A stretch of DNA of 51,183 nucleotides from Pleurocapsa sp. CCALA 161 (GTDB taxonomy: Bacteria > Cyanobacteriota > Cyanobacteriia > Cyanobacteriales > Xenococcaceae). Each line of letters begins with the position of its first letter. Within the stretch, counting starts at the first letter, position 1. Location: NCBI RefSeq assembly GCF_003003995.1, contig NZ_PVWF01000017.1:6738-57920 (forward strand), read 5' to 3'. This document shows, in pieces, positions 1,946 through 51,073 of this stretch. The position numbers and the translations under genes are program-made. The notes under the pieces were generated by a model. It searched no databases and was not told where the DNA came from. It worked only from the letters and a program-made list of their open reading frames with translations.

Positions 1946-1960
1946 TTTTTATCCTCTAGT

Positions 1961-28335: not shown

Positions 28336-28355
28336 TTTGAAGAAGTTATGAGGAT
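28336..28355 (+). promoter_or_regulatory. TGAGGAA direct-repeat box, P-ATPase promoter
   Basis: TTTGAAGAAGTTATGAGGAT; 16 of 20 positions match the commonest form. It starts 100 bp upstream of the minus-strand ATPase gene and lies on the opposite strand to it. Confidence 0.6.
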
Positions 28356-28439
28356 TTTTATTAACTTTGTGATTACTTGAGTATTGTTTATGTAGTTTTA
28401 GCAGTATACCCTGAGAATACTTCAACCTGAAGCCTATTT

Positions 28440-28459
28440 TTCTTCATAAGTTCCTCAAA
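28440..28459 (-). promoter_or_regulatory. TGAGGAA direct-repeat box, DUF1830 gene promoter
   Basis: Read on the minus strand: TTTGAGGAACTTATGAAGAA, 19 of 20 to the commonest form. It is 207 bp upstream of the plus-strand DUF1830 gene and on the opposite strand to it. With the box at 28336 it makes the 429-bp spacer 28237-28665 a divergent control region; no gene or RNA is seen in that spacer. Confidence 0.65.
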
Positions 28460-28665
28460 TTTCCGCTGTAATCTTAAAAACTAAATAGGGCAGTTATTTA
28501 GGAGCAGTTATTTAGCAAATATAAGCCAATGGGCAACAAATAGAGGTTCTCAGACTGATGAAAAGTTTTCTGGGCAATTAACAACAATACTCTAGACAAT
28601 TTTTGTATAGTGCAGCATCAACATTAAATCCTGCGATTAATTGGTAAGTACAACGGTAAAACAAA

Positions 28666-28929
28666 ATGAATATCAACAGTCAAATTACCAAAAATATCAC
28701 AAACGAGCTTGAGGAAAAAACCCTATGCGCTTATCAAAACTTGAGTAGCCATTGGCAAATAGTTAAAATTACCAATCTACCCAATTACTATTGGGAAAAG
28801 GCTGTTTTACCTGGTCAAAAAATTATTTTCATTACGTCTATCAAAGCCATCTTAAAAATTTTCTCGGCTGAGAACATTACGGCAGTATTGATAGATAACA
28901 TTCCCTGTCATCAGCTAAAAATAAATTAA
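28666..28929 (+). CDS. DUF1830 domain protein
   Basis: It has 87 residues. The core LCAYQNLSSHWQIVKITNLPNYYWEKAVLPGQKI, whose key part is ITNLPNYYWEKAVLPGQ, and the ending IDNIPCHQLKIN match the small cyanobacterial DUF1830 family; function unknown. Soluble, no signal peptide. Preceded by a direct-repeat box and followed 49 bp later by another small gene. Confidence 0.8.
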   Translation: MNINSQITKNITNELEEKTLCAYQNLSSHWQIVKITNLPNYYWEKAVLPGQKIIFITSIKAILKIFSAENITAVLIDNIPCHQLKIN

Positions 28930-28978
28930 GCATTACTAAGATCGATTGACTATAAAATAACCAATTTAATTTTGCAAA

Positions 28979-29455
28979 ATGCTTACCAAAATAGTAGATC
29001 TAACTCAGCTTTGTGTTGTCAAACAAGTTCAATATATCCTAGTAGAATTAGAGAAAGATCGGGATAATTTGATTCTTCAAGATTCTTATTACCAGCAGCA
29101 GCTAATTGAATATGTTTTATCTAACTTAAATCATCGATTTATGATGCTTGAATTGACCGAAATTCCTCAAGACCCTAGTGACGTATTTCCTCAATGTCCT
29201 ATAGATGAACAAATAGCAATAAGACAACTGTTACAAATGAAAATCTCTCAGATTGGGCGATACGTAGGCGATGGTAAACATGATTCCTTAGAAATGCAGT
29301 CGCAGAAGATGAAGAATACTTTCACCAGCAAGAATGATTCACGACAGCGTAAACGCGAAGTTCAATGCGAAGAGGATATTAGACCCTGTTTGATACAGCC
29401 CCTTCGGGGCAAGCGCGCTTCGCGCTTGGGGCGCAAGCCCCGTGTTAATAGCTAA
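28979..29455 (+). CDS. hypothetical protein, C-terminus encoded by a repeat
   Basis: It has 158 residues and is unrecognised. The N-terminal 90 residues are amphipathic and acidic (VQYILVELEKDRDNLILQD, YVLSNLNHRFMMLE) and look like a real folded domain. The last 25 residues (LIQPLRGKRASRLGRKPRV) are basic and encoded by three tandem hairpins at 29398-29441, so a repeat inserted into the 3' end and supplied the stop. Probable partner of the DUF1830 gene. Confidence 0.6.
   Translation: MLTKIVDLTQLCVVKQVQYILVELEKDRDNLILQDSYYQQQLIEYVLSNLNHRFMMLELTEIPQDPSDVFPQCPIDEQIAIRQLLQMKISQIGRYVGDGKHDSLEMQSQKMKNTFTSKNDSRQRKREVQCEEDIRPCLIQPLRGKRASRLGRKPRVNS
29398..29441. repeat. three tandem perfect hairpins
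   Basis: GCCCCTTCGGGGC (29398-29410) can close as a cTTCGg tetraloop; AAGCGCGCTTCGCGCTT (29411-29427) is a 7-bp stem; GGGGCGCAAGCCCC (29428-29441) has a GCAA loop of the GNRA type. They abut without spacers, 85 bp before phosphoketolase. A mobile repeat family is likely; in RNA it would be very stable. Confidence 0.85.
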
Positions 29456-29525
29456 TAGCTGGGGCGAAGCACTGTATTTTTGCCTTGACAACTAATTCCC
29501 AACTGCAAAACTTAACACTACTATT

Positions 29526-31940
29526 ATGACTGTAACTCAACCTGAAATTACAAAGCTCCAAGAATCTCTAACTAAAGAAGAGATACGCCTGATAAATGCC
29601 TATTGGCGAGCAGCAAACTATCTTTCTGTGGGACAGATATATTTATATGACAATCCCCTACTTAAAGAACCTTTAAAGCTCGAACACATCAAACCCAGAC
29701 TGCTGGGGCATTGGGGAACAACTCCAGGTCTAAACTTCATTTACGTTCACCTCAATCGTTTAATTAAAAATCACGACCTCAACGCGATCTATGTTACTGG
29801 TCCTGGTCATGGCGGACCCGCATTGGTTGCCAATACCTACCTAGAGGGAACTTATAGCGAATTTTATCCCAATATTTCACAAGATGCTGAGGGTATGAAA
29901 CAACTGTTTAAACAGTTTTCTTTCCCTGGCGGAATTCCCAGTCACGTTGCTCCCGAAACTCCTGGCTCGATTAATGAAGGAGGAGAACTCGGTTACTCCC
30001 TCTCTCATGCCTATGGAGCAGCTTTTGATAACCCCGATTTGCTGGTTGCTTGTGTCGTAGGGGATGGCGAGGCAGAAACAGGAGCTTTAGCTACTGCTTG
30101 GCACTCAAATAAGTTTCTCAACCCCATTACCGATGGTGTTGTTTTGCCAATTCTGCATTTAAATGGCTACAAAATTGCCAATCCTGCGGTATTAGCTCGC
30201 ATTCCCCACGAGCAGTTAAAAAGCTTGTTTATCGGTTATGGCTACAAGCCTTACTTTGTCGATGTCCAGGGTTCTGACCCCGAAACCATGCACTCTGTAA
30301 TGGCTCAGACTTTAGAGACAGTTATCGCCGAGATTAAAGAAATCCAGCACGATGCTCGTCATAATAATAGTACCGAGATTCCCCAATGGCCGATGATAAT
30401 TCTGCGGAGTCCCAAAGGCTGGACGGGACCAAAAGAAGTTGATGGTAAGAAAACCGAGGGATTTTGGCGATCGCACCAAGTTCCTTTATCTGGGATGGCA
30501 ACTAACCCCGAACACCTAAAACAGCTTGAAGCCTGGATGAGGAGTTACAAACCCGAAGAACTCTTTGACGAAAACGGGAAACTAATTCCCGAACTAGCAG
30601 CATTAGCTCCCCAAGGCGATCGCCGTATGGGTGCAAACCCTCACGCTAATGGCGGTATTTTACTCAGAGATTTGAAAATGCCTGATTTTAGAGATTATGC
30701 CGTCGATGTTCCCCAGCCTGGTAACGTTTATGCCGAAGCAACTCGAACGATGGGGCAGTTTTTGCGGGATGTGATGAAGTACAATCGGGATAAATTTAGG
30801 GTAGTAGGGCCAGATGAAACCGCTTCCAATCGTCTTAATGCCCTGTTTGAAGTAACCGATCGCACTTGGATGGCGCAAACTTTACCTGAAGATAGTGATG
30901 GTGGTAACTTAGCCGAGGACGGTCGGGTGATGGAAGTCTTGAGCGAAAACACTTGTCAGGGTTGGCTTGAAGGATATTTACTCACGGGTCGTCATGGCTT
31001 TTTCTCCTGCTACGAAGCGTTTATCCACATCATCGATTCGATGTTCAATCAACACGCTAAGTGGCTCAAAACGACCCGCGAAATTCCCTGGCGCAGGCCA
31101 ATCGCTTCTCTTAACTACTTATTGACTTCCCACGTCTGGCGACAGGATCATAATGGTTTTTCTCACCAAGACCCAGGCTTTATCGATCACGTCATGAATA
31201 AAAAGGCGGATATCATTCGCGTTTATCTACCCCCCGATGCTAATACCCTGTTATCTGTAACCGATCACTGTTTGCGAAGCCGTGATTATGTCAACGTCAT
31301 TGTGGCGGGAAAACAGCCCCAATTGCAGTATTTGAATATGGATGAGGCGATTAGGCACTGCACTAAAGGAATCGGTATTTGGGAATGGGCGAGTAACGAT
31401 CGCGGTGTTGAGCCAGATGTCGTCATGGCTTGTGCTGGGGATGTCCCGACCTTAGAAACTCTAGCAGCAGTTGCGCTACTGCGCCAATATTTTCCCGAAT
31501 TGAAAGTGCGGGTAATCAACATTGTCAATCTGATGAAGCTTCAGTCCGCCAGCGAACATCCTCACGGTTTATCGGACAAAGATTTTGATACCCTCTTTAC
31601 TACTAATAAACCAATTATTTTTGCCTATCACGGCTACCCTTGGTTGATTCACCGTTTAACTTATCGACGAACGAACCACAATAATCTTCACGTGCGGGGA
31701 TATAAAGAAGAGGGAACTACAACCACTCCTTTCGATATGGTGGTTCTCAACGATCTCGATCGCTTTGACCTAGTGGCGGATGTTATCGACCGAGTACCAA
31801 AACTAGGGGCTGCTGCTGCTTATGCCAAAGAAATTATCCGCAACAAACTACTAGAACATAAGCAATATATCAGGAAATACGGTGAGGATTTGCCAGAGGT
31901 GCGCGACTGGAAGTGGCCTTATTCCAACATTGAACATTGA
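29526..31940 (+). CDS. xfp: phosphoketolase
   Basis: It splits xylulose 5-phosphate and/or fructose 6-phosphate with phosphate to acetyl phosphate plus an aldose phosphate, using ThDP. It has 804 residues, the normal length, with [10 protein letters not shown]-like [34 protein letters not shown], the ThDP motif [19 protein letters not shown], and conserved C-terminal domain. It gives cyanobacteria a carbon-saving route to acetyl units and is linked to dark or low-oxygen metabolism. No acetate kinase is adjacent; a lactate permease is 1.2 kb downstream. The stop lies in ACATTGAACATTGA, which matches the heptamer repeats near 47740. Confidence 0.96.
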
Positions 31941-32420
31941 CGCGCGATCCCGCGTCGACGACAGGACTTACCCATGATAATTTTTGCCTTGCTTTTAAAA
32001 CGCTTTAAGCCGTTAGGTTAGAGCGACGATCCGCGCCGTCTCCGTCGTCTTATATGCGGAGCGGTATACCATATCCGAAGGTGTATCCTTTAGGACAAGA
32101 ATACAATGTGCTAAAGCATTTGCGAAGCTTATCCTTTAGGACGACGGAGTAATCTGTGACTCCTCTATTTACTTGACCTGAGTTCGGGATTAGCTCAAAT
32201 CCTTATTTTGAAGGTATTTAAAAAATACTATTTTCCGTTCTTCTTTCATAGTAGAGTTGCATCCAAACTATCTCAAAAGCTAGAGCTTAGAGCTTACAGC
32301 TTACAGCTATCTCCACCAATTAATCTGCTTAACCCGAACTCAGGTTACTTGGTTATTGACACACTAACCTTATCAAAATATACACTGTTACCAATTGAAA
32401 TTCTGTAGTTTTTAATACAA
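31941..32420. repeat. repeat-bearing spacer after phosphoketolase
   Basis: It is 480 bp with no convincing gene. 32072-32086 and 32110-32142 repeat blocks of the trpB-trpD spacer exactly. At 32284-32311 there are four imperfect heptamers (AGCTTAG, AGCTTAC, AGCTTAC, AGCTATC), a short tandem repeat of the cyanobacterial STRR kind. A 66-codon frame at 32208-32408 runs across the heptamers and looks spurious. Confidence 0.7.
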
Positions 32421-33056: not shown

Positions 33057-33105
33057 TAATTTGCGAGAAGTGTCAATGTAATATTATAAGTGGCGTGCAT
33101 TAAAA

Positions 33106-34770: not shown

Positions 34771-34886
34771 CTGAGTTAAGTTATAAAACGTTAACTTGAC
34801 TTAAATACAAATAATTTTGTAAATTTAAATACAGAAAGCATTTTTAATTTATGCATCTACGTGCTTTAAAACGAGCGGAAAAAATT

Positions 34887-36057: not shown

Positions 36058-36067
36058 AGGTGTGATT

Positions 36068-36601
36068 TTACGAGTCGAGGTTTTCCCCTGCTGCTTTCCA
36101 GCCCTCTATACTTGGAGGAAAACCTCGAACATTATCGTACTCGAGCATTTGGAGAGCCATAACGCCCATTGCAGTTCGATAACCCGTCGCACAGTAGAGT
36201 ACGACAGGACGATCTTTAGGAATTTGGTCGAGGTTTTGAGTTATATCTCGTAAAGGAAGATTTATTGCTCCTTTAATATGACCGTGAGCATATTCTTTTG
36301 GTTGACGAATATCAACTAATAATGCTTGTTTCTCCTTGGTAAGAGTTTTAAGTGCATCTATCTTTTGGACAGTATAATAATCACTGGGAAGATCGCTCAG
36401 AAATTCCTGCACAGTTTTCGGAGCCAGATTTTTGCTAGCTAATTGCGCTACATAATTTTTAGGAGCTACTGTCTCTAACCCATCTGCGGTTTGAGAAGTA
36501 GTAACATCAGCCAAAGTAGAGTTAGTTCTTAAAAAAGTACCAAAATACAACCAGAACGCAATTAATAAGGTAGCTAAAATTTTTCTCATTTTTCTAAACA
36601 T
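36068..36601 (-). CDS. exported rhodanese-domain protein
   Basis: About 177 residues from the ATG at 36601. An N-terminal membrane segment or signal peptide (ILATLLIAFWLYFGTFL) leads to a single rhodanese domain from about residue 80: VDIRQPKEYAHGHIKGAINLP and active-site Cys in LYCATGYRTAM. It would move sulfane sulfur in the periplasm or thylakoid lumen. It is the last gene of a three-gene minus-strand operon with a deleted methyltransferase and a DUF4079 protein, under one direct-repeat box. Confidence 0.87.
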   Translation of the reverse strand: MFRKMRKILATLLIAFWLYFGTFLRTNSTLADVTTSQTADGLETVAPKNYVAQLASKNLAPKTVQEFLSDLPSDYYTVQKIDALKTLTKEKQALLVDIRQPKEYAHGHIKGAINLPLRDITQNLDQIPKDRPVVLYCATGYRTAMGVMALQMLEYDNVRGFPPSIEGWKAAGENLDS

Positions 36602-36635
36602 AAATATAGGCAAATTATTTCGATTAAGTCTTGCT

Positions 36636-37049
36636 TTAAAAACTTCGGTTATTGATTTTTTTCCTAACTATCCCTGCAATATGAGGACTGACAACGGGAA
36701 AAGCCAGTTTAAACTCATAGTAATTAACAGTTTCTAGCCCAATTTGTTGAAGAATTTCTCCCGTTTTGCGGTTGGGATGACAGTTATCAAACAAAGATTT
36801 CCAAACTGGTTCGACACCAATCCAGTAAATGTTATTGGGATAATAGACTAGACTAGCTCCCGCACCAGGATCAATTTCTAAAACTTTATGCTGTAAATTT
36901 CCCAAGAGTCCTTGTTTAAGTTCTCCTAAGCTTTCATACTTAGGGCAACCGATTAGCTTAATCTCGTAATCATCGGCAGCATTAGCTTTTCCCATGCCCC
37001 AAGCAAACAAACGTTTTTGAATAGTTGATAGATTTATGTGATTTTTCAA
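36636..37049 (-). pseudogene. methyltransferase with internal in-frame deletion
   Basis: It has 137 residues. The beginning (LQHKVLEIDPGAGASLVYYP, ending NNIYWIGVEP) is motif I of a METTL7-like class I methyltransferase. The end (VWKSLFDNCHPNRKTGEIL, VVSPHIAGIVRK) is the C-terminus of the same family. They are joined directly at EP-VW; roughly 80 residues carrying the rest of the SAM fold are missing. The frame is open throughout, so a short product may be made. The start codon is a TTG at 37049 or an internal ATG. Between DUF4079 and rhodanese genes. Confidence 0.7.
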
Positions 37050-37059
37050 GCTAAAAAAA

Positions 37060-37530
37060 TCACAAATTACTAATTAGCTTTTGTACGATCTGCACTCCTG
37101 TAATCGCCTGCCAGCTAAACAATGCCAAAAGTATCGCGTTGAGAGAAATATGACTATAACGAGCCAAGTCATTTCCCTTTTGCATATATGGGACTAGAGA
37201 AGCAGAGGTAGCAATCAGTCCTACCATACCCAAACCCACCAGTAAGTGAGGTCCAACAAACAGTTTACCGTTGTTGATGTAAGTTACTGCCATTCCGCCT
37301 AAAGCCCCTATCACCATAAAAGCCAATAAAATTGAACCGACTCGATGATGTCTGTTGCTAAAATTTTGCTTAACTAACTCTTTGCGGAGTTCTTTGGGAG
37401 CATTGCGAGTACGGCGAATCTGCCAACCAAGATATAGTGCATAAATAGCAGTAAAAAACAGAATCCACATCATAAGGGGATGAAAAAATTGCGACCAAGT
37501 TTTGATGTTTTCAGGAATCTCAAAGTTCAT
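37060..37530 (-). CDS. DUF4079 membrane protein
   Basis: It has 156 residues with four predicted membrane helices (MMWILFFTAIYALYLGW; VGSILLAFMVIGALGGMAV; LLVGLGMVGLIATSASLV; ISLNAILLALFSWQAITG). His residues sit in helices 1, 2 and 3 regions (FHPLMMW, RHHRVGS, GPHLLVG), suggesting a cytochrome-b-like haem protein; this is inference. First gene of the operon with the methyltransferase relic and rhodanese; a direct-repeat box is 92 bp upstream. Confidence 0.8.
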   Translation of the reverse strand: MNFEIPENIKTWSQFFHPLMMWILFFTAIYALYLGWQIRRTRNAPKELRKELVKQNFSNRHHRVGSILLAFMVIGALGGMAVTYINNGKLFVGPHLLVGLGMVGLIATSASLVPYMQKGNDLARYSHISLNAILLALFSWQAITGVQIVQKLISNL

Positions 37531-37621
37531 TGTGTTCTCCTCTATTAATTGATTTATGAAAATTTTTGATTATGGCAAGTTTGAGCAGATGCCAGAAATT
37601 AAACCAATAATATTGACTTGA

Positions 37622-37641
37622 TTTGAGGAAGTTGTGAGCTT
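37622..37641 (+). promoter_or_regulatory. TGAGGAA direct-repeat box, DUF4079-rhodanese operon
   Basis: TTTGAGGAAGTTGTGAGCTT, 15 of 20 positions to the commonest form. It starts 92 bp upstream of the DUF4079 start, on the opposite strand. The rest of spacer 37531-37792 holds no gene. Confidence 0.55.
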
Positions 37642-38578: not shown

Positions 38579-39112
38579 TTAAACCCACCAGGGTTTTTCT
38601 CCCGTACGGGGGTCGGTTTCTGTCCAGGGTGAAATACGAATATAGTCTCCCTCAACATTTACATGGGCAAGCTGCAAAGGTAGTGGTGCAGGACCTCGTA
38701 ATACTCTCCCTTGCGCATCGTAACGAGAACCGTGACAGGGACATTGAAATTGCTCGTCATTGGGATTCCAAGGAAAAGTACAGCCTAAATGGGTACAGTT
38801 ATCAGCAATTGCCCAGGGATGCAGCGTACCATCTTCTTTAATAGTGAGATAGGTTGGTTCTCCTGCTATTCCCGCAATTAATGCCCGCGTTCCTGGTGGT
38901 TCTGCTAAAATTTGTCCAGCAGGAATAATATTACCGTTTATATCCTTGGCAATAATCGAGCCATCTTCGCCAACTTCTGAGGGTGGAATGAAAAAATTAC
39001 CTACAGGGTAAAGGGCTGCACCAGCAGTAGCAGCAACGGCTGCACCAGTGAGAAAGTTAAGTAACTGTCTTCGTGACATGGATGGACTTTCTATAGGAAG
39101 ACTTCCTTCCAT
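38579..39112 (-). CDS. petC: cytochrome b6f Rieske iron-sulfur protein
   Basis: It has 177 residues. The N-terminal twin-Arg-like stretch SMSRRQLLNFLTGAAVAAT is the membrane anchor; the Rieske cluster is bound by CTHLGC and CPCHGS. It passes electrons from plastoquinol to cytochrome f/plastocyanin. AGGAG lies 9 bp before the ATG at 39112 but abuts the ATG at 39121, so 39112 (MEGSLPIES) is chosen. Cyanobacteria often have several petC; promoter box and neighbours suggest this one is stress-regulated. Confidence 0.93.
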   Translation of the reverse strand: MEGSLPIESPSMSRRQLLNFLTGAAVAATAGAALYPVGNFFIPPSEVGEDGSIIAKDINGNIIPAGQILAEPPGTRALIAGIAGEPTYLTIKEDGTLHPWAIADNCTHLGCTFPWNPNDEQFQCPCHGSRYDAQGRVLRGPAPLPLQLAHVNVEGDYIRISPWTETDPRTGEKPWWV

Positions 39113-39190
39113 ATGTATCATCTCCTAAAATATTCTTATCGGTGCGTTTTTTCAGGATGTTGCAATAATTCCTGATATGCGAAGCGGTGA

Positions 39191-39231
39191 GACAGTCCGT
39201 TGCGGGTGTCCCGCCCGTTAAAGGAACTGTC
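39191..39231. repeat. imperfect hairpin repeat between petC and its distal box
   Basis: GACAGT (39191-39196) pairs with ACTGTC (39226-39231); inside, CGGG and CCCG form a second stem. It is the kind of GC-richer interspersed repeat seen elsewhere in the window and appears inserted into the petC upstream region, putting the direct-repeat box 232 bp from the start. The rest of 39113-39446 holds no gene. Confidence 0.5.
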
Positions 39232-39343
39232 GAACCCTTTAGGGTATCCGTGATCAAATAGCTTCGCGTCGTCCGTGATAGACTTCGATCTTTTCTTATA
39301 CTTGCAAAAAAGATGAACGATACTATAAAGACTAAACAAAAAC

Positions 39344-39363
39344 TTTGAGGAACTTATGAGGAA
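39344..39363 (+). promoter_or_regulatory. TGAGGAA direct-repeat box, petC upstream region
   Basis: TTTGAGGAACTTATGAGGAA, one of three identical copies in the window (also 44936 and 51054). Opposite strand to petC. The distance to the start is enlarged by a repeat insertion. Confidence 0.7.
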
Positions 39364-39446
39364 CAAAAAAGATTTTTCCTGATGATTGAGTGCTTCGGTA
39401 TTGATTGTAAATCAACTTAGCAGATATATTTTTACTAATCACCATC

Positions 39447-40014: not shown

Positions 40015-40177
40015 ATCAGAGGGAAATTATTTGAATAAATTACGGTTCTTCACAGATTTATCAAATTGTTGTTTTAACTTCAACTTAATCAAGCTTTAAC
40101 TGACATTCCTTCTCTATTGTGCCAGGAATAATCTATCATGCGATCGCACAAATCGAGTTAAAACTTTAAATTATTCT

Positions 40178-40197
40178 AGCTTCATAACTTCCTCAAA
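40178..40197 (-). promoter_or_regulatory. TGAGGAA direct-repeat box, plastocyanin promoter
   Basis: On the minus strand: TTTGAGGAAGTTATGAAGCT, 16 of 20 to the commonest form. It ends 84 bp before the plastocyanin ATG, opposite strand to the gene. Spacer 39906-40280 also holds the 19-bp element above and no gene. Confidence 0.65.
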
Positions 40198-40280
40198 TTA
40201 TAAATCTATAGTTTTAAATGAAGGATTAATTATTAGTAGTTTCGACTCGATCTAATAATTAACAACAAAGGAGTTTTACA

Positions 40281-40673
40281 ATGCGTCGATTAATATCAAT
40301 TATTATTTTATTCACAATCGCCTTTATTTTCTGGACAACCCCCGTTGCTGCTGAAACCTATACTGTAAAAATGGGTTCGGATACTGGTCAATTGAAATTT
40401 GTCCCAGAAACTTTAGAAATTAAAGCGGGAGATACTGTTAAATGGGTAAACAATAAAGTTCCCCCTCACAATGCTGTTTTTGAAGGCGATAAAGTTCCGA
40501 ACGGTGATAAAGCCTTAGCTGATAAGATTTCTCACAAAAAGCTACTTTTTGCCCTGGGAGATTCCTTTGAAACAACATTTTCTGATGTTACTGCTGGTAG
40601 TTATCCCTACCATTGTGAACCTCATCTAGGAGGAGGAATGGTCGGCAAAATTATTGTAAAAGAATCTGATTAG
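40281..40673 (+). CDS. petE: plastocyanin
   Basis: Lumenal copper protein carrying electrons from cytochrome b6f to photosystem I or oxidase. It has 130 residues: signal peptide ending PVAAETYTV (cleavage after VAA) and a cupredoxin fold. Copper ligands are His in VPPHNAVF, then Cys, His and Met in [13 protein letters not shown]. Ribosome site AAGGAG before ATG. The EPHLGGG loop differs slightly from the usual EPHRGAG. The sequence after the stop (to 40803) reads EKLEQALTAGKSMPFADYS in one frame without a start, possibly an antitoxin-like relic. Confidence 0.93.
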
Positions 40674-43591: not shown

Positions 43592-44182
43592 TTACCACCC
43601 GCAGCAACCAGTACCAGGTTGATTTCGATTACGATTTGTATTCCAAGCGGGGACACCATCGTTGTTTCTTAGCTCGATGACGCGATCGCCTTGCCGTATT
43701 TCAGCAGCCATGATGACAGGCTCGCCAGCCCAATTAACTCTAGAACCCCTAACCACAATTTCTTCACCTGAGTTTACTTGAAAGCCTCGATCCTCAAGAT
43801 ACCTCGAAGGACCTAGATGCACGGGTACAGTACCTTCTTCAGTTTCTACTAATATCTCTCTACCTTGAGACATCCCATTCCCTGGCGTAAAAGCGTTTGT
43901 ACTAACAACTGTTCCCCGAATTGTCTCGACTGTATTGACGTTGTACATACCGCCGTAGCGATTATGATGTCCCCTACCTCTCATTCCACCATGATGGTGT
44001 CTACCTCTGCCATAACCTCGATTGGGATAGGGCTGATTTGTTTCTGGCTGTGATGGTGGATAAGATTGTTGTTGTCGCTGCGCTACTGTCTCGGCTAAAG
44101 CTCGATCGGTTTTTAGTATTGGTAGTGCTAAACCAGCAACAGCAATTATAGTTATAGCTTGATTAACTTTGTCTGTTTTCAT
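43592..44182 (-). CDS. exported His/Gly-rich protein with OB-fold-like domain
   Basis: It has 196 residues. Signal peptide (AITIIAVAGLALPILKTDRALA), then a Gln/Pro stretch and a HHHGG/RGHHNR basic His-rich segment (about 60-85) likely to bind metal or anionic polymer. About 90-175 is a beta-rich domain (TIRGTVVSTNAFTP, ILVETEEGTVPVHLGP, VVRGSRVNWAGEPVIMA) resembling bacterial OB-fold proteins. It ends TGCCGW. Function unknown. Direct-repeat box 90 bp upstream. Confidence 0.75.
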   Translation of the reverse strand: MKTDKVNQAITIIAVAGLALPILKTDRALAETVAQRQQQSYPPSQPETNQPYPNRGYGRGRHHHGGMRGRGHHNRYGGMYNVNTVETIRGTVVSTNAFTPGNGMSQGREILVETEEGTVPVHLGPSRYLEDRGFQVNSGEEIVVRGSRVNWAGEPVIMAAEIRQGDRVIELRNNDGVPAWNTNRNRNQPGTGCCGW

Positions 44183-44271
44183 TTTTTCTCCTATCGAACA
44201 ATCTCGATCTAATGATTAATTACTCTAAAGTTGAATAAACTCGATCTCCTATTCTTAAGTTAGTAATTAAA

Positions 44272-44291
44272 ATTGAGGAATTTATGAAGCA
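44272..44291 (+). promoter_or_regulatory. TGAGGAA direct-repeat box, OB-fold-like gene promoter
   Basis: ATTGAGGAATTTATGAAGCA, 15 of 20 positions. It starts 90 bp upstream of the gene start, opposite strand. The spacer 44183-44483 holds no gene. Confidence 0.55.
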
Positions 44292-44483
44292 CTTTTTTTC
44301 TTTAAAAACGCGCAACGAGCGATCGCATATTTCTTCTAGATCGCACCTTAAGTTTGGCTAATATTTACAAAAAGTAAAAAAACAGGAAAGATTAGCTAAT
44401 ACCCATTTTCAGCCATTAGCTAGAGAGATAATAAATGGTATAAGAATATTTTCGTTGTGGTTTAGATCGTGTGCGCTCTATTA

Positions 44484-44810
44484 TTAGGAAACAAGTGATT
44501 TTTTTCGAGAAGGTTTTGGTTTAGTGATTACCTTGACTGAACCATTAACTATAGTTTGACAAGCTAAACGATAATTATTTGGTTTCTTTTTCAATTTACG
44601 TTGTTCAAAATCTGTTTTAGGGGATAAGTTTTCCATCCCATCAGCAATTTCAACCAAGCAAGTGGCACATTGCCCAAGACCACCGCAGTTTCTTAGTTTG
44701 CCTCCTAAAGTATAAATATCAATTTTATTTTGCAGGGCTTCGGAGCGTAAATTAGAACTCTGTGCTGCGATTGCTTCTTTATCTTCTTTTACAAAGGTAA
44801 TAGTCGTCAT
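44484..44810 (-). CDS. [2Fe-2S] ferredoxin
   Basis: It has 108 residues. The cluster Cys are in [17 protein letters not shown] (C-x5-C-x2-C) and LACQT near residue 88. This spacing is of the bacterial/adrenodoxin-like or Fed7-like low-abundance type rather than photosynthetic PetF (C-x4-C-x2-C). A basic tail KPKPSRKK follows. It may serve as electron donor to stress enzymes such as the reductase-less globin (inference). A perfect direct-repeat box is 126 bp upstream. Confidence 0.87.
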
Positions 44811-44935
44811 AGAATTTTTCTTTGGTTAAATATTCAAATAAATGTGTGTGACCTAAGTTGCCATTAAAAAAATTTTGTCGCAACTGGGCATTTTCAGACT
44901 CGCCCATGCCATCTAAATATAGATTAGAAAAAAAC

Positions 44936-44955
44936 TTTGAGGAACTTATGAGGAA
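44936..44955 (+). promoter_or_regulatory. TGAGGAA direct-repeat box, ferredoxin promoter
   Basis: TTTGAGGAACTTATGAGGAA, identical to 39344 and 51054; flanks AAAAAC before and CAAA after are also shared with 39344. Opposite strand to the ferredoxin gene. It could also serve amylosucrase, 125 bp to the right. No gene in 44811-45080. Confidence 0.7.
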
Positions 44956-45080
44956 CAAAGAATATGTTCGCAATTGGCTCAATAGTATATCTAGTGCATC
45001 GAAAAAGTGGCAAAGTAGTAAAATGACAACGTTTTAGAACAATGTCGATCGCCTTTTAAATTTTGTTTTCTAGCTAAATT

Positions 45081-47075
45081 ATGCACAACATTTTATTAAT
45101 GTCGGACGAAGCTCGCTCCGCCTTTATCGCCATGAAAAGCCGTGAGGAACATAAACTGGCTGCCTGTTGCGAACCCAGGGACGCAGATATATTTTGGTTA
45201 AGATTTGAACGTTATTTTGAAGATTTGTACTATCCTCTCATAAAAGTTTATGGCGATTACGAGGATGCTATAGAACAATTTAGAATTTTGTTCGACCATA
45301 TGGTTGAGGCATATGCAGCCAGACCTCAAGCCCTAAGACTTCTCGATCTAGAAAGGCAATTTACCCCACAGTGGTTTCAGCAACCGAACATGGTAGGTTA
45401 CACCTGTTACGCCGACCTATTTGCCGATAATCTTAATGGAGTACGAGAAAAAATTAGCTATTTCCAAGAACTTGGTATTACTTACCTCCACTTAATGCCC
45501 CTGCTTGAGCCGAGTCCAGGGCTGAGTGATGGAGGCTATGCCGTAAAAAACTACCGTAAGGTTAATCCAGAATTAGGCACAATGTCCGATCTACGACAGC
45601 TTGCTAACGAACTGCATGACTGTGGTATCAGTCTGTGCTTAGATCTGGTGCTAAACCATACTGCCAAAGAACACGAGTGGGCTCAACGGGCAATGGCTGG
45701 AGAAGAAGAGTATCTTGACTATTACTATACTTTTGGCGATCGCACCTTACCAGATGCCTACGAACAAACACTGCCAGAAATATTCCCCAATGACGCACCA
45801 GGTAACTTTACCTGGTATCCCCAGATGGCGAGCAAAGGTCGCTGGGTTTGGACAACCTTTAATGAATTCCAATGGGATCTTAACTATACCAATCCCACGG
45901 TGTTTCGCGAAATGGTCGATCTGATGTTTTTCCTTGCCAATCAGGGAGCGGACGTTTTACGGTTTGATGCTATACCATTTATTTGGAAACGCCTGGGAAC
46001 AAACTGCCAGAATCAGCCTGAAGTGTTTCAACTCATTCAGGCGTTTCGTGCTATTATGCGAGTCGTTGCCCCAGGAATGATACTCAAGGCCGAAGCGATC
46101 GTACCACCCGATGCTCTCCTGCAATATCTTGGTGTTAAATCAACGGTGGAGAAACAGTGCGAACTGGCTTATAACAATCAGTTAATGGTAGTGCTTTGGA
46201 GTTCTTTAGCTACCCGCAACGTTTCTCTAATGACCCAGGTGTTTCACGATCTACCACGAACGATGATCGGCTGCGCTTTCATTAACTACGTTGGCAACCA
46301 CGATGATATTGGCTGGGCAATGACTGATGAGGCACTTGCAGCAGTAGGTGAAAACGGTTTTCTCCATCGCCAATTCCTGAATCAATTCTACACTGATACC
46401 TACCCTGATTCTTTTGCCAAGGGAACTTTGTTTCAGTTTAATCCCGAAACCAAAGATGCTCGGATTACTGGCACTACAGCTTCTCTGGCTGGATTAGAAA
46501 AAGCCCTAGCCACAGGAGATAGCAATAAAATTGACTTAGCGGTACGTCGTATTCTGCTGCTGCACAGTATCATTTTAGGCTTTGGTGGCATTCCCTTAAT
46601 TTATATGGGAGATGAGTTAGGGGTACTCAACGATTTTTCTTACTTAAGCGATCCTCTAAAAGCTGGTGATAGCCGTTGGATCGCTCGATCGCCTATGGAT
46701 TGGTCTAAAGCTGCTAAACGTCACGATCCTAATACTGTTGAAGGGAAAATCTTTCAAGGTTTAGTTCATTTAATCAAAGTTCGCAAGTCCACCTCACTGC
46801 TGCACTGTTTTTCTTACTTCCAACCAATGTGGACTGACAACGAACATATATTGGCTTACTGTCAAAAGCGGGCAGAAGGAACGCTAATGGTGCTGGCTAA
46901 CTTTCAGTCAACCGAACAATCGGTCACTGCCAAAATGCTAGAGTACGGCGGTCTTATAGGAAAGATCCGCAATTTGCTCGCTAACAATGTTTCCCCAATT
47001 ATTGCTAATGAACGCATCTATCTACAAGCCTATGAGACTATGTGGTTGGTAAGCGATGAATTTACCTTGTTCTAG
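45081..47075 (+). CDS. ams: amylosucrase (GH13)
   Basis: It makes alpha-1,4-glucan and fructose from sucrose, or runs toward sucrose breakdown. It has 664 residues. The N-terminal helical domain typical of amylosucrases is followed by the barrel: DLVLNHTAKEHEWA, nucleophile Asp in VLRFDAIPFIWK, acid Glu in LKAEAIVPP, and third acid in NYVGNHDDIGWAM. A C-terminal beta domain closes it. It links osmolyte sucrose to glycogen-like stores in this stress island. Confidence 0.93.
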   Translation: MHNILLMSDEARSAFIAMKSREEHKLAACCEPRDADIFWLRFERYFEDLYYPLIKVYGDYEDAIEQFRILFDHMVEAYAARPQALRLLDLERQFTPQWFQQPNMVGYTCYADLFADNLNGVREKISYFQELGITYLHLMPLLEPSPGLSDGGYAVKNYRKVNPELGTMSDLRQLANELHDCGISLCLDLVLNHTAKEHEWAQRAMAGEEEYLDYYYTFGDRTLPDAYEQTLPEIFPNDAPGNFTWYPQMASKGRWVWTTFNEFQWDLNYTNPTVFREMVDLMFFLANQGADVLRFDAIPFIWKRLGTNCQNQPEVFQLIQAFRAIMRVVAPGMILKAEAIVPPDALLQYLGVKSTVEKQCELAYNNQLMVVLWSSLATRNVSLMTQVFHDLPRTMIGCAFINYVGNHDDIGWAMTDEALAAVGENGFLHRQFLNQFYTDTYPDSFAKGTLFQFNPETKDARITGTTASLAGLEKALATGDSNKIDLAVRRILLLHSIILGFGGIPLIYMGDELGVLNDFSYLSDPLKAGDSRWIARSPMDWSKAAKRHDPNTVEGKIFQGLVHLIKVRKSTSLLHCFSYFQPMWTDNEHILAYCQKRAEGTLMVLANFQSTEQSVTAKMLEYGGLIGKIRNLLANNVSPIIANERIYLQAYETMWLVSDEFTLF

Positions 47076-47124
47076 CTTCTATTTTAGGCGTTGCTGATTA
47101 AGTAATGTTCTATCAAGTATTACT

Positions 47125-47162
47125 GCTCTAAGCTCTAAGCTCTAAGCTCTAAGCTCTAAGCT
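47125..47162. repeat. heptanucleotide tandem repeat (GCTCTAA) x5.4
   Basis: Five perfect GCTCTAA units plus GCT. A short tandemly repeated repetitive (STRR) sequence of the kind known in cyanobacteria. The related heptamer AGCTTAG is at 32284-32311. It lies in the amylosucrase-uspA spacer. Confidence 0.95.
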
Positions 47163-47247
47163 TTTTAAGAAAATAGTCTATTTCGATAGGAACAAAAAAA
47201 TGCTCAACAGCATTACAATTAACCAACGCCCTATTTTAAAGAAAAGT

Positions 47248-47733
47248 CTAATTAGTATCAGCAGTTTTTAGGACAATAAAAACCGAACAGGGAGCATGAT
47301 GGGTTACATAGTTGCTAACGCTACCCAGAAACATCTCTTTAATACCTGTTAAACCCCTGCTACCAACCACGATTAGATCTGCCGACCATGTTTGAGCTAA
47401 GTTACAAATAGTTTCCCCCCGATCGCCTAAAGTTTGGGTAAATTCGGCGTTAACTCCTGCTGCTGTTGCTTCTTTAACAAGCGATCGCATTACTTTTAGC
47501 CTCTGTTGCTGTTGCCGTTCGAGTTCTTGCCAGTGTTGATCGTAAGCTTCTAAAATAGATGAGTCTAAGGGATTGCCTTCTCGTTTTAGGTCAATAGACG
47601 AACTTGAATCGTCGTTTTCTTGATCCGACAAAACGTGCAGCAGCATCAAGCTTGCGCCAGTGGTTTTTGCCAAATATACAGCAGTTTCAAAAACATCTTT
47701 GCTTGCGGTTGAACGGTCTATTGCCACGATCAT
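47248..47733 (-). CDS. universal stress protein, UspA family, altered N-terminus
   Basis: It has 161 residues: MIVAIDRSTASKDVFETAV, then a variable insert (DSSSSIDLKREGNPL), and the ATP loop GSRGLTGIKEMFLGSVSNYV. Very similar to the protein at 50377, which begins MFNKILVAIDRS; here the first residues are missing and replaced upstream by tandem heptamers. The first 17 coding bases are part of a 56-bp inverted repeat copied at 49522-49577. Confidence 0.88.
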   Translation of the reverse strand: MIVAIDRSTASKDVFETAVYLAKTTGASLMLLHVLSDQENDDSSSSIDLKREGNPLDSSILEAYDQHWQELERQQQQRLKVMRSLVKEATAAGVNAEFTQTLGDRGETICNLAQTWSADLIVVGSRGLTGIKEMFLGSVSNYVTHHAPCSVFIVLKTADTN

Positions 47734-47772
47734 TCATTGAACATTGAACATTGAACATTGAACAGTGAACAT
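47717..47772. repeat. 56-bp perfect inverted repeat, left copy, with heptamers
   Basis: It includes the start of the uspA gene and four ATTGAAC units plus one variant. The perfect inverted partner is at 49522-49577. Together they bracket 1.75 kb carrying the oxidoreductase and dps genes. Confidence 0.95.
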
Positions 47773-47873
47773 GAAGAACTGTTGCGCGCACAGTTAACCT
47801 CTCTTGGTTATTGTTACTGTATTTATTCTTAATGCAAATTCTTGTATGATTGCCTAACTTTAATTGTCTAGTA

Positions 47874-48878
47874 CTATTCCAACTTCACCACCATCTTGCC
47901 AATATTTTTGCCTTCAAACAGACCAAGGAATGCGCTAACAGCTCGATCGATCCCAGTTACCAACGTTTCTTTGCTTTTTAGTTGACCCGCTTGGAAATAA
48001 CCGCCTACTTCCCGTTCAAATTCATCTTGGCGATCGAGCCAATCGCTAACAATCAAACCTTTCATCGTTAATCGTTTGGTAGTCATATTAAAAAGATTGT
48101 GCGGTGCAGATGGGGGCTTCGTTGCGTTGTAACCTGAAATACTGCCACAGGCGATAATTCGACCATGTACCCGTAGAACTGAGAGGGCTGCTTCAAGCAT
48201 CTCGCCACCTACATTATCGAAATAGACATCAATTCCATCTGGAGCAGCTAGTTCTAGCTGTTCGAGGACAGAATCACTTTTGTAATTAAAAGCTTTATCA
48301 AATCCACATTCTTCCTGAAGAAATTTAATTTTTTCTGACGAACCAGCAGTTCCGATAACTCGACATCCTCGTATTTTTGCTAGTTGCCCAGCTACACTTC
48401 CTACCGCACCAGCCGCCCCCGAAATGAAAACTATGTCGCCCGCCTTGACCTCGACCAAGTTTAATCCTGCCCAAGCGGTCATGCCAGTCATACCCAAAGC
48501 ACCGAGGTAAATTGAAAGTGGTTGAATTTTGCGCTCGACCTGATGCAAATCCTGCGGTGCAGCGATGAAGTATTCTCGCCAACCAAAGTTAGATGTAACG
48601 ATATCACCGGGTTGGAAATTGGGCGATCGCGATTCGATCACTTCGCCTACTGCTCCACCTTCTAGGGGTTTGTCTAACTCAAACGGTGGAACATAGGACT
48701 TTCTATCGGTCATACGACCGCGCATATATGGATCGACTGACATATAGAGGTTCCGCACCAGCACTTGCTGATTTTGTAGCGACTCTAGTTCGGTTTGAAC
48801 CAGAGCAAAGTTATCTTCCGTGGGTATTCCCTTGGGACGGGATATCAACTGAATTTCCTGACTTTTAATAGCTGTCAT
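47874..48878 (-). CDS. zinc-independent NADP-dependent oxidoreductase (MDR superfamily)
   Basis: It has 334 residues of the leukotriene B4 dehydrogenase / curcumin reductase (YncB-like) type that reduces alkenals and enones. SVDPYMRGRMTD near residue 45 and the NADP loop ISGAAGAVGSVAGQLAKIRG are diagnostic; no zinc Cys. Suits detoxification of lipid-peroxidation aldehydes. It lies 24 bp after dps on the same strand, probably co-transcribed, and inside the 56-bp inverted repeats. Confidence 0.9.
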   Translation of the reverse strand: MTAIKSQEIQLISRPKGIPTEDNFALVQTELESLQNQQVLVRNLYMSVDPYMRGRMTDRKSYVPPFELDKPLEGGAVGEVIESRSPNFQPGDIVTSNFGWREYFIAAPQDLHQVERKIQPLSIYLGALGMTGMTAWAGLNLVEVKAGDIVFISGAAGAVGSVAGQLAKIRGCRVIGTAGSSEKIKFLQEECGFDKAFNYKSDSVLEQLELAAPDGIDVYFDNVGGEMLEAALSVLRVHGRIIACGSISGYNATKPPSAPHNLFNMTTKRLTMKGLIVSDWLDRQDEFEREVGGYFQAGQLKSKETLVTGIDRAVSAFLGLFEGKNIGKMVVKLE

Positions 48879-48902
48879 CTTTTTCTCTCGAATAAATTAA
48901 AT

Positions 48903-49403
48903 TTAAACCAAATGCGCTTCTAAGAACCAAAGACGTAGATCGATCGTCCGCGAAATCTCGGTATACAAATCGGCTGTATCGGCATCGCCCATTTCATCAG
49001 TAGTATCGATCGCCTCACGCAGGTGTTTACCATAGACTGCATAGCGATCGGCTAGAGCCGTAACGTGTTCGACCCCGCTAATAGCATCAAGGGGATATTC
49101 GGGCAAAATTGACTTGGAAGCAGCAATTCGTGCCGTTCCCATAGCCTTACCTGCCAAAGCCGTCACTCTTTCTGCCACCATATCGGTGTATTCTTCTAGC
49201 TCCGCAGCCATTTCATCAAACAGTTCGTGTAGCTGATAAAAATTCATACCTCTAACGTTCCAGTGTGCTTGTTTAGTTTGGGTTTTTAGATCCAAAGTAG
49301 CAGCAAGAGTTTGATTTAATAGTCCAGTAACTTCAAGACGACAGTCTTTAGGTAGATCGATTCTACTAGGATAGAGTTGCGTTTTGTTAATTGTAGAAAC
49401 CAT
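48903..49403 (-). CDS. dps: Dps family DNA-protecting ferritin-like protein
   Basis: It stores iron by oxidation with peroxide and protects DNA as a 12-mer. It has 166 residues with the ferroxidase signature KQAHWNVRGMNFYQLHELFD and EMAAELEEYTD. N-terminal tail short (MVSTINKTQLYPSR). First gene of a probable pair with the oxidoreductase; both lie between the inverted repeats. Confidence 0.93.
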   Translation of the reverse strand: MVSTINKTQLYPSRIDLPKDCRLEVTGLLNQTLAATLDLKTQTKQAHWNVRGMNFYQLHELFDEMAAELEEYTDMVAERVTALAGKAMGTARIAASKSILPEYPLDAISGVEHVTALADRYAVYGKHLREAIDTTDEMGDADTADLYTEISRTIDLRLWFLEAHLV

Positions 49404-49521
49404 ATGTTTAATTCTCCTTTGTATTTATTTGATTTAAACTTCAATATCGATTGATTAGATAAAAGCAATATCCAAGAACGTCACTTCATTCATCATTCAC
49501 CATTTATCAGTTGGCTGTTTA

Positions 49522-49577
49522 ATGTTCACTGTTCAATGTTCAATGTTCAATGTTCAATGAATGATCGTGGCAATAGA
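49522..49577. repeat. 56-bp perfect inverted repeat, right copy
   Basis: Exact reverse complement of 47717-47772: heptamers GTTCAAT x4 followed by 17 bases equal to the first codons of the uspA gene (ATGATCGTGGCAATAGA), after which the sequence leaves uspA. A copied uspA 5' end with no gene behind it. Confidence 0.95.
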
Positions 49578-49601
49578 TCTGCTTTATTCTCCTCAATTTC
49601 T

Positions 49602-50327
49602 TTAAGCTAATGTGCGAGAATTCTCCTCAACTAAATGCTGGAAATTATCACGCCACTCATCAAATTTGGTGACATAGTTGTATCCGCAAACAGTATCAAG
49701 CGATTGCTCGGAAATAATTTCTAGTATCCGTGATGCACGTTTACGTGTCTCGTCTTGCGGTCCAAAAGGGTTAAACCGCATCTTAGAACCTGGAGGAAAG
49801 GCATAGTCGCAAATAAACAACACCTTGCCATAGATGTACGAGGTAAAACCTGGCGTATGTCCGCCTATATGGAAAGCTTCAATGCCATGCTCGCTAAAGT
49901 CACCCTCAAACTCTCGATCGACTGGAAATTGTCTGGCAAGTGGATGTTCGGCATCAAAAGCGTGCAGATAAACTTTCGCATCCCAGGCTTCACGATACTG
50001 GTTGGATGCACCCATAAAATCCTTGTGGGTGAAGTAGATCGATTCTACTGGTTTTAAGTCGGGATCGAATACTGATGGACAATCAATCCAAACAGCAGCA
50101 TCATCTGTTTCAATACGATAAGCAGCGTGTTCTAAACCAAGACGAGGCACTGATAGCAACTGCGTAACGTAGTCATTTACACGATACGATGTTACGCGAT
50201 AGATCTGCTGTGCCTCATCCCAAGGTACAAACTCATTATGGTTTGCTCCGCAAAACGGACAAACATCAGGTATATCGCCAATCATGTTATAGCCACAAAC
50301 AATGCAAATAGATTGATTATGATTCAT
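49602..50327 (-). CDS. rubredoxin-like plus metallo-beta-lactamase-fold protein
   Basis: It has 241 residues. About 1-35 is a rubredoxin-type knuckle pair (CIVCGYNMIG, DVCPFCGANH). About 50-235 has the metallo-beta-lactamase fold as in flavodiiron proteins, but the HxHxDH motif reads FTHKDFMG, and the terminal His is missing (VCGYNYVTK). GGHTPG and the CDYAF Asp remain. The di-metal site is thus incomplete. No flavodoxin domain. A redox or sensor role is possible; catalysis is doubtful. Confidence 0.8.
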   Translation of the reverse strand: MNHNQSICIVCGYNMIGDIPDVCPFCGANHNEFVPWDEAQQIYRVTSYRVNDYVTQLLSVPRLGLEHAAYRIETDDAAVWIDCPSVFDPDLKPVESIYFTHKDFMGASNQYREAWDAKVYLHAFDAEHPLARQFPVDREFEGDFSEHGIEAFHIGGHTPGFTSYIYGKVLFICDYAFPPGSKMRFNPFGPQDETRKRASRILEIISEQSLDTVCGYNYVTKFDEWRDNFQHLVEENSRTLA

Positions 50328-50376
50328 TTCCTATTTCTCCGAAAAGATTGGGTTCTTTGTTGTTTAAAAGACTTAG

Positions 50377-51015
50377 TTAAGATTTTGCTGAGGATTGGGG
50401 TTCTTTTTCCAAGTAAGAACTTGATTTAGCTACAAATTCATGTTTTCTAAAAGTTAGTTTTTCAGAAGTAGAAGAAGTTAATTCTCGTTGCTTGCCCTGA
50501 AACGATTGAGAATCATAATTGACCGAGACAGAGGTGTTGGCAGTTTTTAGCACAATTAAAACCGAACAGGGGGCATGATGAGTTACATAATTACTAACGC
50601 TACCCAAAAACATCTCTTTAATACCAGACAAGCCTCTGGTACCGACCAAGATCAAATCTGCCGACCATGCTTGGGCTATATCGCAAATATCACGTCCAGG
50701 ATTGCCACAAAATTGGGTAAATTCAGCATTGACTCCTGCTGTTGTTGCTTCTCGAACGAGCGATCGCAAAAATTCTACTCCTTCTGCTTCATATTTATGC
50801 CACTGTTCTTCATACGCTTTGAGAAGTGATTCGCTCATTACATTGTATCTGATACCAGAGTAGACAAATAGAGTTGGATCTTGTTTTTCTTCATTCGCTA
50901 AAACGTGCAGCAGCATCAAGCTTGCTCCAGTTGTTTTTGCCAGAGATACAGCAGTTTCAAAAACATCCCTGCTTGCGGTTGAACGATCTATTGCTACCAA
51001 AATTTTATTGAACAT
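50377..51015 (-). CDS. universal stress protein, UspA family, with C-terminal tail
   Basis: It has 212 residues: MFNKILVAIDRSTASRDVF, an insert (TLFVYSGIRYNVMSE), ATP loop GTRGLSGIKEMFLGSVSNYV, then a 50-residue polar tail rich in Ser, Lys and Glu not found in the two paralogues. A perfect direct-repeat box lies 39 bp upstream, the closest of all. Confidence 0.9.
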   Translation of the reverse strand: MFNKILVAIDRSTASRDVFETAVSLAKTTGASLMLLHVLANEEKQDPTLFVYSGIRYNVMSESLLKAYEEQWHKYEAEGVEFLRSLVREATTAGVNAEFTQFCGNPGRDICDIAQAWSADLILVGTRGLSGIKEMFLGSVSNYVTHHAPCSVLIVLKTANTSVSVNYDSQSFQGKQRELTSSTSEKLTFRKHEFVAKSSSYLEKEPQSSAKS

Positions 51016-51053
51016 CTTAATTACCTCGCTTAAATATATATATAGGAAAGTAA

Positions 51054-51073
51054 TTTGAGGAACTTATGAGGAA
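51054..51073 (+). promoter_or_regulatory. TGAGGAA direct-repeat box, uspA promoter
   Basis: TTTGAGGAACTTATGAGGAA, identical to the boxes at 39344 and 44936. It starts 39 bp from the minus-strand uspA start, opposite strand, where it could overlap the promoter or leader. Confidence 0.7.

Follow-up and report, generated by a model that had tools for sequence, protein, structure and literature searches.

A direct-repeat promoter box in Pleurocapsa sp. CCALA 161 and many other cyanobacteria suggests a low-oxygen regulon run by hybrid OmpR-type regulators

It is well established that class II promoters of the PhoB type carry 7-bp direct repeats with an 11-bp period, which replace the −35 element and lie about 10 bp before the −10 hexamer; in the pho box the half-site is CTGTCA. 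Direct repeats are also the sites of ArcA, a single-domain regulator, and palindromes those of the CRP/FNR family. In a stretch of 51,183 nucleotides from the cyanobacterium Pleurocapsa sp. CCALA 161 (positions 6,738 to 57,920 of contig NZ_PVWF01000017.1, assembly GCF_003003995.1), hereafter the window, we studied a repeated 20-bp box that, in the sense of the gene behind it, reads TTCCTCA-N4-TTCCTCA, or in fuller form TTCCTCA(T/C)AAGTTCCTCAAA. The box resembles the pho box in its direct-repeat geometry, and the winged helix-turn-helix (wHTH) profile of its candidate regulators matches the PhoB DNA-binding-domain structures 1gxp (4.6e-18) and 1qqi; it differs in the half-site TTCCTCA, in named targets that include no phosphate genes, and in a candidate regulator that is a hybrid with an Hpt domain and extra receivers. 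We read the box as the mark of a low-oxygen/dark-fermentation regulon probably run by a family of hybrid OmpR-type regulators, with a probability of about 0.65, both the binding and the signal being deduced from sequence.

A likeness exists also with ArcA-ArcB of enteric bacteria, in which, according to the accessible part of one source, an OmpR-family regulator governs a redox/oxygen regulon (PMC3798270); ArcA is described, in the available text of another, as repressing aerobic respiration (PMC10653796), whereas here the sites look activating and the relay modules are fused to the candidate regulator. For cyanobacteria, the accessible part of a 2026 review names ChlR, CyAbrB2/SigE, RpaB and RppA, with sites unlike the box (PMC13421787). 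RpaB is likewise an OmpR-type regulator with a tandem direct repeat and photosynthesis targets; however, its HLR1 site, given there as KTTACAWW-N2-KTTACAWW and activating at −45 to −66, has another core and a 10-bp period (PMC13421787), and an RpaB HLR1 regulon was discarded on the consensus TTCCTCA-N4-TTCCTCA. The same text presents ChlR and CyAbrB2/SigE as microoxic regulators of Synechocystis controlling low-oxygen genes, hox and nifJ, a task like the one proposed here; the ChlR site is a palindrome, TTMCC-N3/4-GGWAA, rather than a direct repeat, and CyAbrB2 binds AT-rich DNA broadly and represses, with no direct repeat (PMC13421787). The available part of PMC5295598 gives the ChlR site only. 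A ChlR regulon was rejected, since the box repeats in direct orientation and only 6 of its 20 positions are self-complementary. A lead on Hpt/GGDEF proteins (PMC9927289) was dropped, the accessible text being unrelated to the box system. In the literature searched, where subscription journals were thinly covered, we found no description of the box, nor of the hybrids as its regulator.

As an earlier sequence-only reading had noticed, eight sites in the window match the box at 15 or more of 20 positions; our scan returned them at exactly the same positions and strands, and the three said to be identical (39344, 44936 and 51054) all match at 20/20. In 100 first-order simulations such sites numbered 0.77 on average and 3 at most, so that a lone 15/20 site is not significant, and eight are; at no more than 3 mismatches, five boxes were found against a shuffled mean of 0.01. 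Moreover, a 35-bp matrix of box and −10 hexamer, trained on 182 contexts from outside the own genome (a few being orthologous Stanieria promoters), recovered all eight with scores of 13.3-45.0, when no score in 40 simulated windows was above 6.4; it also revealed a ninth, weak box. The 11-bp spacing of the half-sites held, 8 of 9 positions repeating at that distance, and the remark that every box lies on the strand opposite its gene is correct, meaning only that the gene-sense box reads TTCCTCATAAGTTCCTCAAA. The boxes are also intergenic, as claimed, apart from overlaps with two short open reading frames (ORFs) with TTG starts, 39136-39366 and 44779-44982, which are unlikely to be real genes. 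What the sequence-only reading overlooked is a conserved −10 and the sites beyond the window. Rfam gave no match to RNA families in 28000-51183, and a known RNA element was on this ground rejected as the identity of the box.

The promoter geometry was analysed in 198 distinct cyanobacterial contexts of boxes with at most 2 mismatches, 6 of them from a Stanieria plasmid. Counted from the box start, a TAnnnT hexamer opens at offset 29, with frequencies of 0.94 for its first T, 0.96 for its A and 0.70 for its last T. TA stands at this offset, exactly 9 bp behind the box, in 184 of the 198 contexts, against 2-55 for the 15 remaining offsets between 22 and 37. A T-rich stretch and this hexamer are the sole departures from a flat base composition on either side of the box, and outside −5 to +60 the flank information reaches at most 0.07 bit. 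The TA was found at +29 for 248/267 boxes of a wider non-redundant set, whose median distance to the assigned start codon is 109 bp, and at the expected offset for 16 of 18 sites of the own genome; in the window it lies at exactly 9 bp in 8/8, with the hexamer ending in T in 7/8. The orientation relative to the downstream genes is uniform, and two spellings recur, ..CTTATGAGGAA frequent in islands and ..CTTGTGAGGAA frequent elsewhere. If the hexamer is assigned to −12 to −7, the box extends from −41 to −22, where it stands in for the −35 element: the site overlaps −35 at a fixed distance from −10, as in class II promoters, and its tandem direct half-sites are one helical turn apart, as in OmpR/PhoB-type operators.

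The box is, beyond reasonable doubt, a real promoter element. Its conserved, pho-box-like geometry suggests that it is of the activator type, and tandem OmpR/PhoB-type binding is a prediction that draws support from the direct repeat with its 11-bp period, from the constant distance to the −10 and from the recurrent linkage to OmpR-type hybrids described below; the direct-repeat symmetry led us to reject a palindromic site of the CRP/FNR or ChlR type. Instead of an activator site, box and TAnnnT together could form a promoter read by an alternative sigma factor, as might be thought from their fixed distance and from GGAACTT on the antisense strand, presumably similar to the −35 of extracytoplasmic function (ECF) sigma factors. 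This is very improbable, because GGAACTT is directed opposite to the gene, the distances from the ends of the gene-sense repeats to the −10 are 22 and 11 bp and not 16-19, a direct repeat of 11 bp is characteristic of tandem wHTH binding, and the −10 is of the ordinary TAnnnT type; wrong strand and wrong spacing were the grounds for discarding it.

The box is not confined to the window. The own genome (5.37 Mb in 249 contigs) holds 18 sites at no more than 3 mismatches, against 1 for the reversed pattern. At up to 2 mismatches, sites occur in 44 of 120 genomes (own included), the reversed control being found once each in 3 genomes; at up to 1 mismatch to either spelling, in 37 of 386 genomes of the phylum (own included; control 1). 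Thirty of these 37 fall in one family, suggested by the genera of named matches to be Nostocaceae, 12 other members of which are without the box, and one lies outside the order. A further scan yielded at least 116 box-bearing stretches, all cyanobacterial among the matches listed, and genomes with many boxes (at least 9 at up to 2 mismatches) are sporadic among the 120 (G000, G002, G004, G013 and G016).

Several copies in islands, and three very similar promoters on one contig, could be seen as a functionless mobile short repeat spread near genes. The probability of this is practically nil: the flanks of the 198 contexts are random, the −10 is fixed, one orientation relative to genes prevails, orthologous promoters keep the box between genera, and ORFs of at least 150 aa contain only 4 of the 267 boxes (10 have no downstream ORF by our assignment rule). 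Random flanks and fixed promoter geometry refute it in the main. On density inside genes, genome-wide occurrence and mobility the sequence-only reading was therefore sustained, with 4/267 boxes in ORFs, 18 sites against 1 and no flanking sequence shared beyond the promoter; its extent of 23 kb was too narrow, as the regulon exceeds 23 kb and is common to many cyanobacteria. On contig C133 the boxes at 4818, 5743 and 7173 of locus L020, upstream of a 94-aa ORF, an RTX-repeat gene and PsbO, have similar upstream flanks and a −10 shifted by one base, and are perhaps a locally duplicated promoter variant.

Behind the boxes of the window lie genes for a Ca-ATPase, DUF1830-phosphoketolase, DUF4079-rhodanese, PetC, plastocyanin, ferredoxin and a Usp operon. 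Elsewhere in the own genome the targets are a FAD oxidoreductase-histidine kinase-receiver operon, lactate dehydrogenase, a DHOD-like enzyme, a receiver, PRTase-FtsH genes, an RTX-repeat protein, a sugar transporter, HSP20 and a second DUF1830, with boxes also before pentapeptide protein, HSP20 and Usp genes; the remaining targets have no Pfam match. Behind the box-driven FAD oxidoreductase, at 7509-10043 of locus L019, a gene encodes an NLI-interacting-factor phosphatase domain fused to PAS, GAF and histidine kinase; a lone receiver comes after it, and the gene is a possible signalling partner. Over all loci, the biggest clusters among the 257 assigned downstream ORFs are Usp (30), HSP20 (14), a 135-aa family (11), PFOR (10), PEP synthase (9) and PsbA (9), and 64 of the 103 clusters are singletons, some probably misassigned. 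PFOR, PEP synthase, PflA, HoxE and a hydrogenase maturation protease score above the NCBIfam cut-off; PflB, the aldehyde half of AdhE, a NuoF/HoxF-like protein, an ADP-forming acetate-CoA ligase (ADP-Acs) and PsbA fall below it, some being cut by the locus edge, and Pfam identifies alternative oxidase and CBS-CP12. No phosphate acquisition genes were found among the named targets, many of the 103 clusters having no annotation. When 161 box-driven ORFs were compared with 639 other ORFs of the same 116 loci, a control inflated by neighbouring operon genes, the box-driven set was enriched in Usp (18 v 9), divergent D1 (8 v 2), HSP20 (7 v 1), PflA (4 v 0), alternative oxidase (3 v 0), PFOR (8 v 7), hydrogenase protease (6 v 3) and PEP synthase (3 v 1).

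The box-driven PsbA proteins deserve attention. Nine were found, six with a full C-terminus, and all six carry E189D, E333A, D342V/I and A344S; the PsbA of the Stanieria plasmid, behind petC and its box, has S170, D189, A333 and L342 and ends earlier. Fourteen distinct normal D1 proteins from four genomes keep D170, E189, D342 and A344, and the full-length boxed PsbA are 65-71% identical to a normal D1. The boxed PsbA have thus lost Mn4CaO5 ligands, like the group 2 (rogue or sentinel) D1, a likeness drawn from residues; in the accessible part of the source, group 2 D1 is described as coming into use when water oxidation is disfavoured (PMC5061849). No promoter box or regulator for group 2 D1 was found in the literature searched. 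As a separate observation, a D1 of genome G016 (contig C61) has A80, L158 and A286, presumably as in the low-oxygen D1' form, yet all examined Mn ligands are present.

Low oxygen is the likely signal, as judged from the targets: PFOR, PflA, PflB, HoxE, lactate dehydrogenase, PEP synthase, phosphoketolase, alternative oxidase and the D1 without Mn ligands jointly indicate anoxia. The signal could also be general stress or electron-chain redox (heat, high light, desiccation, dark), with the fermentation genes forming only a part of a broad stress regulon; Usp and HSP20 are in fact the commonest targets, and FtsH, Dps-type ferritin, OsmC and pentapeptide genes are also among them. We consider this possible, and less probable than a low-oxygen signal. 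The redox/stress regulon of the sequence-only reading is upheld and narrowed to a probable low-oxygen/fermentation programme.

As for the protein that binds the box, the own genome has 20 Trans_reg_C genes. One of them, on contig C87 and cut by the contig end, encodes a hybrid with the order receiver-winged helix-Hpt-receiver and adjoins an HSP20 gene driven by a box. The hybrid has a complete orthologue in Stanieria, and hybrids divergent from box-driven genes occur also in Nostoc, Calothrix, Richelia and other genomes. Receiver and Trans_reg_C score above the Pfam cut-off in 9/9 and 3/3 scanned hybrids. In G060 and G100, of the box-rich family, and in Anabaena azotica, one chain combines receiver, wHTH, Hpt, further receivers, PAS and histidine kinase, with GAF too in the first two. 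Two proteins, of 1770 aa (2811-8123 of locus L260) and 1650 aa (3848-8800 of locus L263), unite an OmpR winged helix with Hpt, receivers, PAS, GAF and an entire histidine kinase in a single polypeptide. In seven genomes a box lies within 2.5 kb of 8 of 30 hybrids, at least one in each genome, and of none of 110 other Trans_reg_C genes (Fisher's test, 2e-6, a value that overstates the linkage, since the genomes were picked for having boxes, island orthologues are counted and 'hybrid' means an open frame of at least 350 aa). Boxes occur in 17/17 genomes with the strongest matches to the hybrid profile (E<=1e-92), a co-occurrence that is partly circular, as the profile was built from box-adjacent proteins. 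In a tree of 45 hybrids, box adjacency changes 8 times, against a shuffled mean of 15.2 with 0 of 500 shuffles as low (near-copies included; flanks of 1.5 kb hide the boxes of some hybrids). The hybrid OmpR/PhoB-type family is the likely regulator of the box.

The binding protein may be another one, either a single-domain OmpR or a CRP/FNR of the island, the hybrids being mere neighbours and perhaps targets. A 233-aa single-domain OmpR gene does lie at C168:15203, two CRP/FNR genes are on island contigs, and some boxed genomes have no strong hybrid. We consider this unlikely: none of the 110 other OmpR genes in the seven genomes has a box within 5 kb, the box has 6 of 20 positions self-complementary where CRP/FNR sites are palindromes, and no site above 15/20 was found in the examined upstream DNA of the 20 own-genome OmpR genes. 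Boxes near hybrids are directed at the divergent neighbour gene; autoregulation was rejected, as no sense box at 15/20 or better with a −10 precedes the 20 own-genome OmpR genes (some upstream DNA being truncated) or 19 near boxes.

Besides the overstated Fisher value and the partly circular profile, several points weigh against a low-oxygen regulon run by the hybrids. Four of the eight box-near hybrids are orthologues in one island (G002, G004, G013 and G016); genome G070 has one box and no hybrid at E<=1e-30, and strong hybrids without any box at up to 2 mismatches occur in G071, G085, G049 and G092. The box-adjacent hybrids are not one clade, and a single regulator clade was discarded because the 21 of the 45 that are box-adjacent are scattered over several. 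With regard to the signal, the PAS and GAF domains give no clue to it, and PsbO, preceded in the own genome by a box with two mismatches and a −10 displaced by one base, is a target with no obvious fit to low oxygen. In the comparison of 161 with 639 ORFs there was no enrichment of AdhE (1 v 4), ADP-Acs (3 v 8), HoxE (2 v 2), HoxF-like (1 v 2), CBS-CP12 (3 v 3) or pentapeptide genes (3 v 12), and PflB (1 v 0) was counted as not enriched.

Much of the regulon in this organism, the hybrid regulator included, lies on an island that matches plasmid pSTA7437.01 of Stanieria cyanosphaera PCC 7437 (genome G013), typed as conjugative. When the 43 window ORFs of at least 80 aa (31 from base 20000 on) were compared with 95 kb of the plasmid, 19 mapped to it, with a median identity of 90%, and ORFs of the own contigs C168, C87, C118 and C5 map to it as well; those of C133, C113, C137 and C200 had no matches, or only more distant ones, on the compared plasmid DNA. 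Among chromosomal comparators, tocopherol cyclase is 65% identical to Stanieria and 69% to G016, ThyX 69% (part of a disrupted frame) and 82%, respectively, and D1, a very conserved protein, 90-91%. The higher identity of the island points to its recent transfer, which we consider likely on these few comparators. Contig C5 (3091 bases) carries a near-copy of the DHOD-like promoter with fragments of pyruvate kinase and Ca-ATPase, and is rearranged or misassembled island DNA.

Box and −10 are kept upstream of five orthologues of window and plasmid, whose coordinates follow with those of the other boxes. On the reverse strand, the box at 28336-28355 (ATCCTCATAACTTCTTCAAA in gene sense; −10 TATCTT, 28321-28326) precedes the Ca2+-ATPase gene (25270-28236; Stanieria box at 207307), and on the forward strand the 19/20 box at 28440-28459 (TAATCT, 28469-28474) precedes DUF1830, a 158-aa ORF and phosphoketolase (28666-31940). 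Again on the reverse strand, the 15/20 box at 37622-37641 (TATTAT, 37607-37612) lies upstream of the DUF4079 gene, a 119-aa ORF and a rhodanese gene (36068-37530), with the promoter kept at Stanieria 196440, and the 20/20 box at 39344-39363 (TAGTCT, 39329-39334) upstream of petC (38579-39121), with the same box, spacer and −10 at position 193959 in Stanieria, whose petC has psbA behind it. Plastocyanin (40281-40673) has two forward-strand boxes, the weak ninth at 40046-40065 (TAACTT, 40075-40080; matrix score 15.6) and, downstream of it, the 16/20 box at 40178-40197 (TATAGT, 40207-40212). The remaining three, all on the reverse strand, are the 16/20 box at 44272-44291 (TAACTT, 44257-44262) before a 196-aa ORF (43592-44182), the 20/20 box at 44936-44955 (TAATCT, 44921-44926; Stanieria 188926) before a Fer2 ferredoxin (44484-44810), and the 20/20 box at 51054-51073 (TATATA, 51039-51044; same box and −10 at Stanieria 186134) before Usp (50377-51015). 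This Usp gene is followed on the same strand by rubredoxin-like, ferritin/Dps-type, alcohol dehydrogenase and second Usp genes (47248-50327). Pfam confirmed the gene names of the sequence-only reading for Ca-ATPase, DUF1830, DUF4079 with rhodanese downstream, PetC, plastocyanin, Fer2 ferredoxin and Usp; its 'OB-fold-like exported' protein, 43592-44182, was not confirmed, having no Pfam match.

The island also holds, on the forward strand at 24555-25265, a CRP/FNR-family regulator 90% identical to its Stanieria plasmid orthologue, which is unlikely to be the box-binding protein because the box is a direct repeat. A cupin-globin fusion (20321-21100) lies in this plasmid-like island, near an HPP membrane protein (22091-22579). 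Adjoining the island, at 701-18167, are PALP (TrpB-like), IGPS (TrpC-like), anthranilate synthase, a ThDP enzyme, a Glu/Leu dehydrogenase and a GDSL protein, a set that presumably resembles the scytonemin sunscreen cluster (ScyA/ScyB-type).

In the mechanism that we propose, low oxygen or over-reduction of the cell would be signalled through a phosphorelay that makes the regulator dimerise on the box, whose two 7-bp TTCCTCA half-sites, 11 bp apart, present one helix face. The binder would be the receiver-winged helix-Hpt-receiver hybrid, fused in some Nostocaceae to PAS/GAF/histidine-kinase modules and encoded by genes recurrently divergent from a box-driven gene. Bound at about −41 to −22, 9 bp ahead of the −10 hexamer, it would act as an activator in place of the −35 element, in the PhoB-type class II manner, and would switch on fermentation and hydrogenase enzymes, stress chaperones, Usp proteins and alternative electron carriers. 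In several Nostocaceae and in Stanieria it would also switch on a D1 unable to hold the Mn cluster.

The known regulators in the accessible part of the review come mostly from Synechocystis and Synechococcus (PMC13421787). It is, in our assessment, poorly known how filamentous and pleurocapsalean cyanobacteria change over, on loss of oxygen, to fermentation, hydrogen metabolism and a photosystem II that does not oxidise water. We give even odds to the wider proposal that the box marks a widespread, so far undescribed cyanobacterial anoxia/dark-fermentation regulon, with its own box and a self-contained class of phosphorelay regulator, which would coordinate hydrogenase, PFOR/PFL fermentation, chaperones and a swap to a non-water-oxidising D1, and would move between genera as a ready-made island on conjugative plasmids. 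A box at a fixed position and a named candidate family open the question to direct binding, reporter and deletion tests, and the box lets the regulon be listed from sequence in many Nostocaceae genomes. The plasmid island, finally, suggests that a whole physiological programme may be transferable at once, together with its own regulator.

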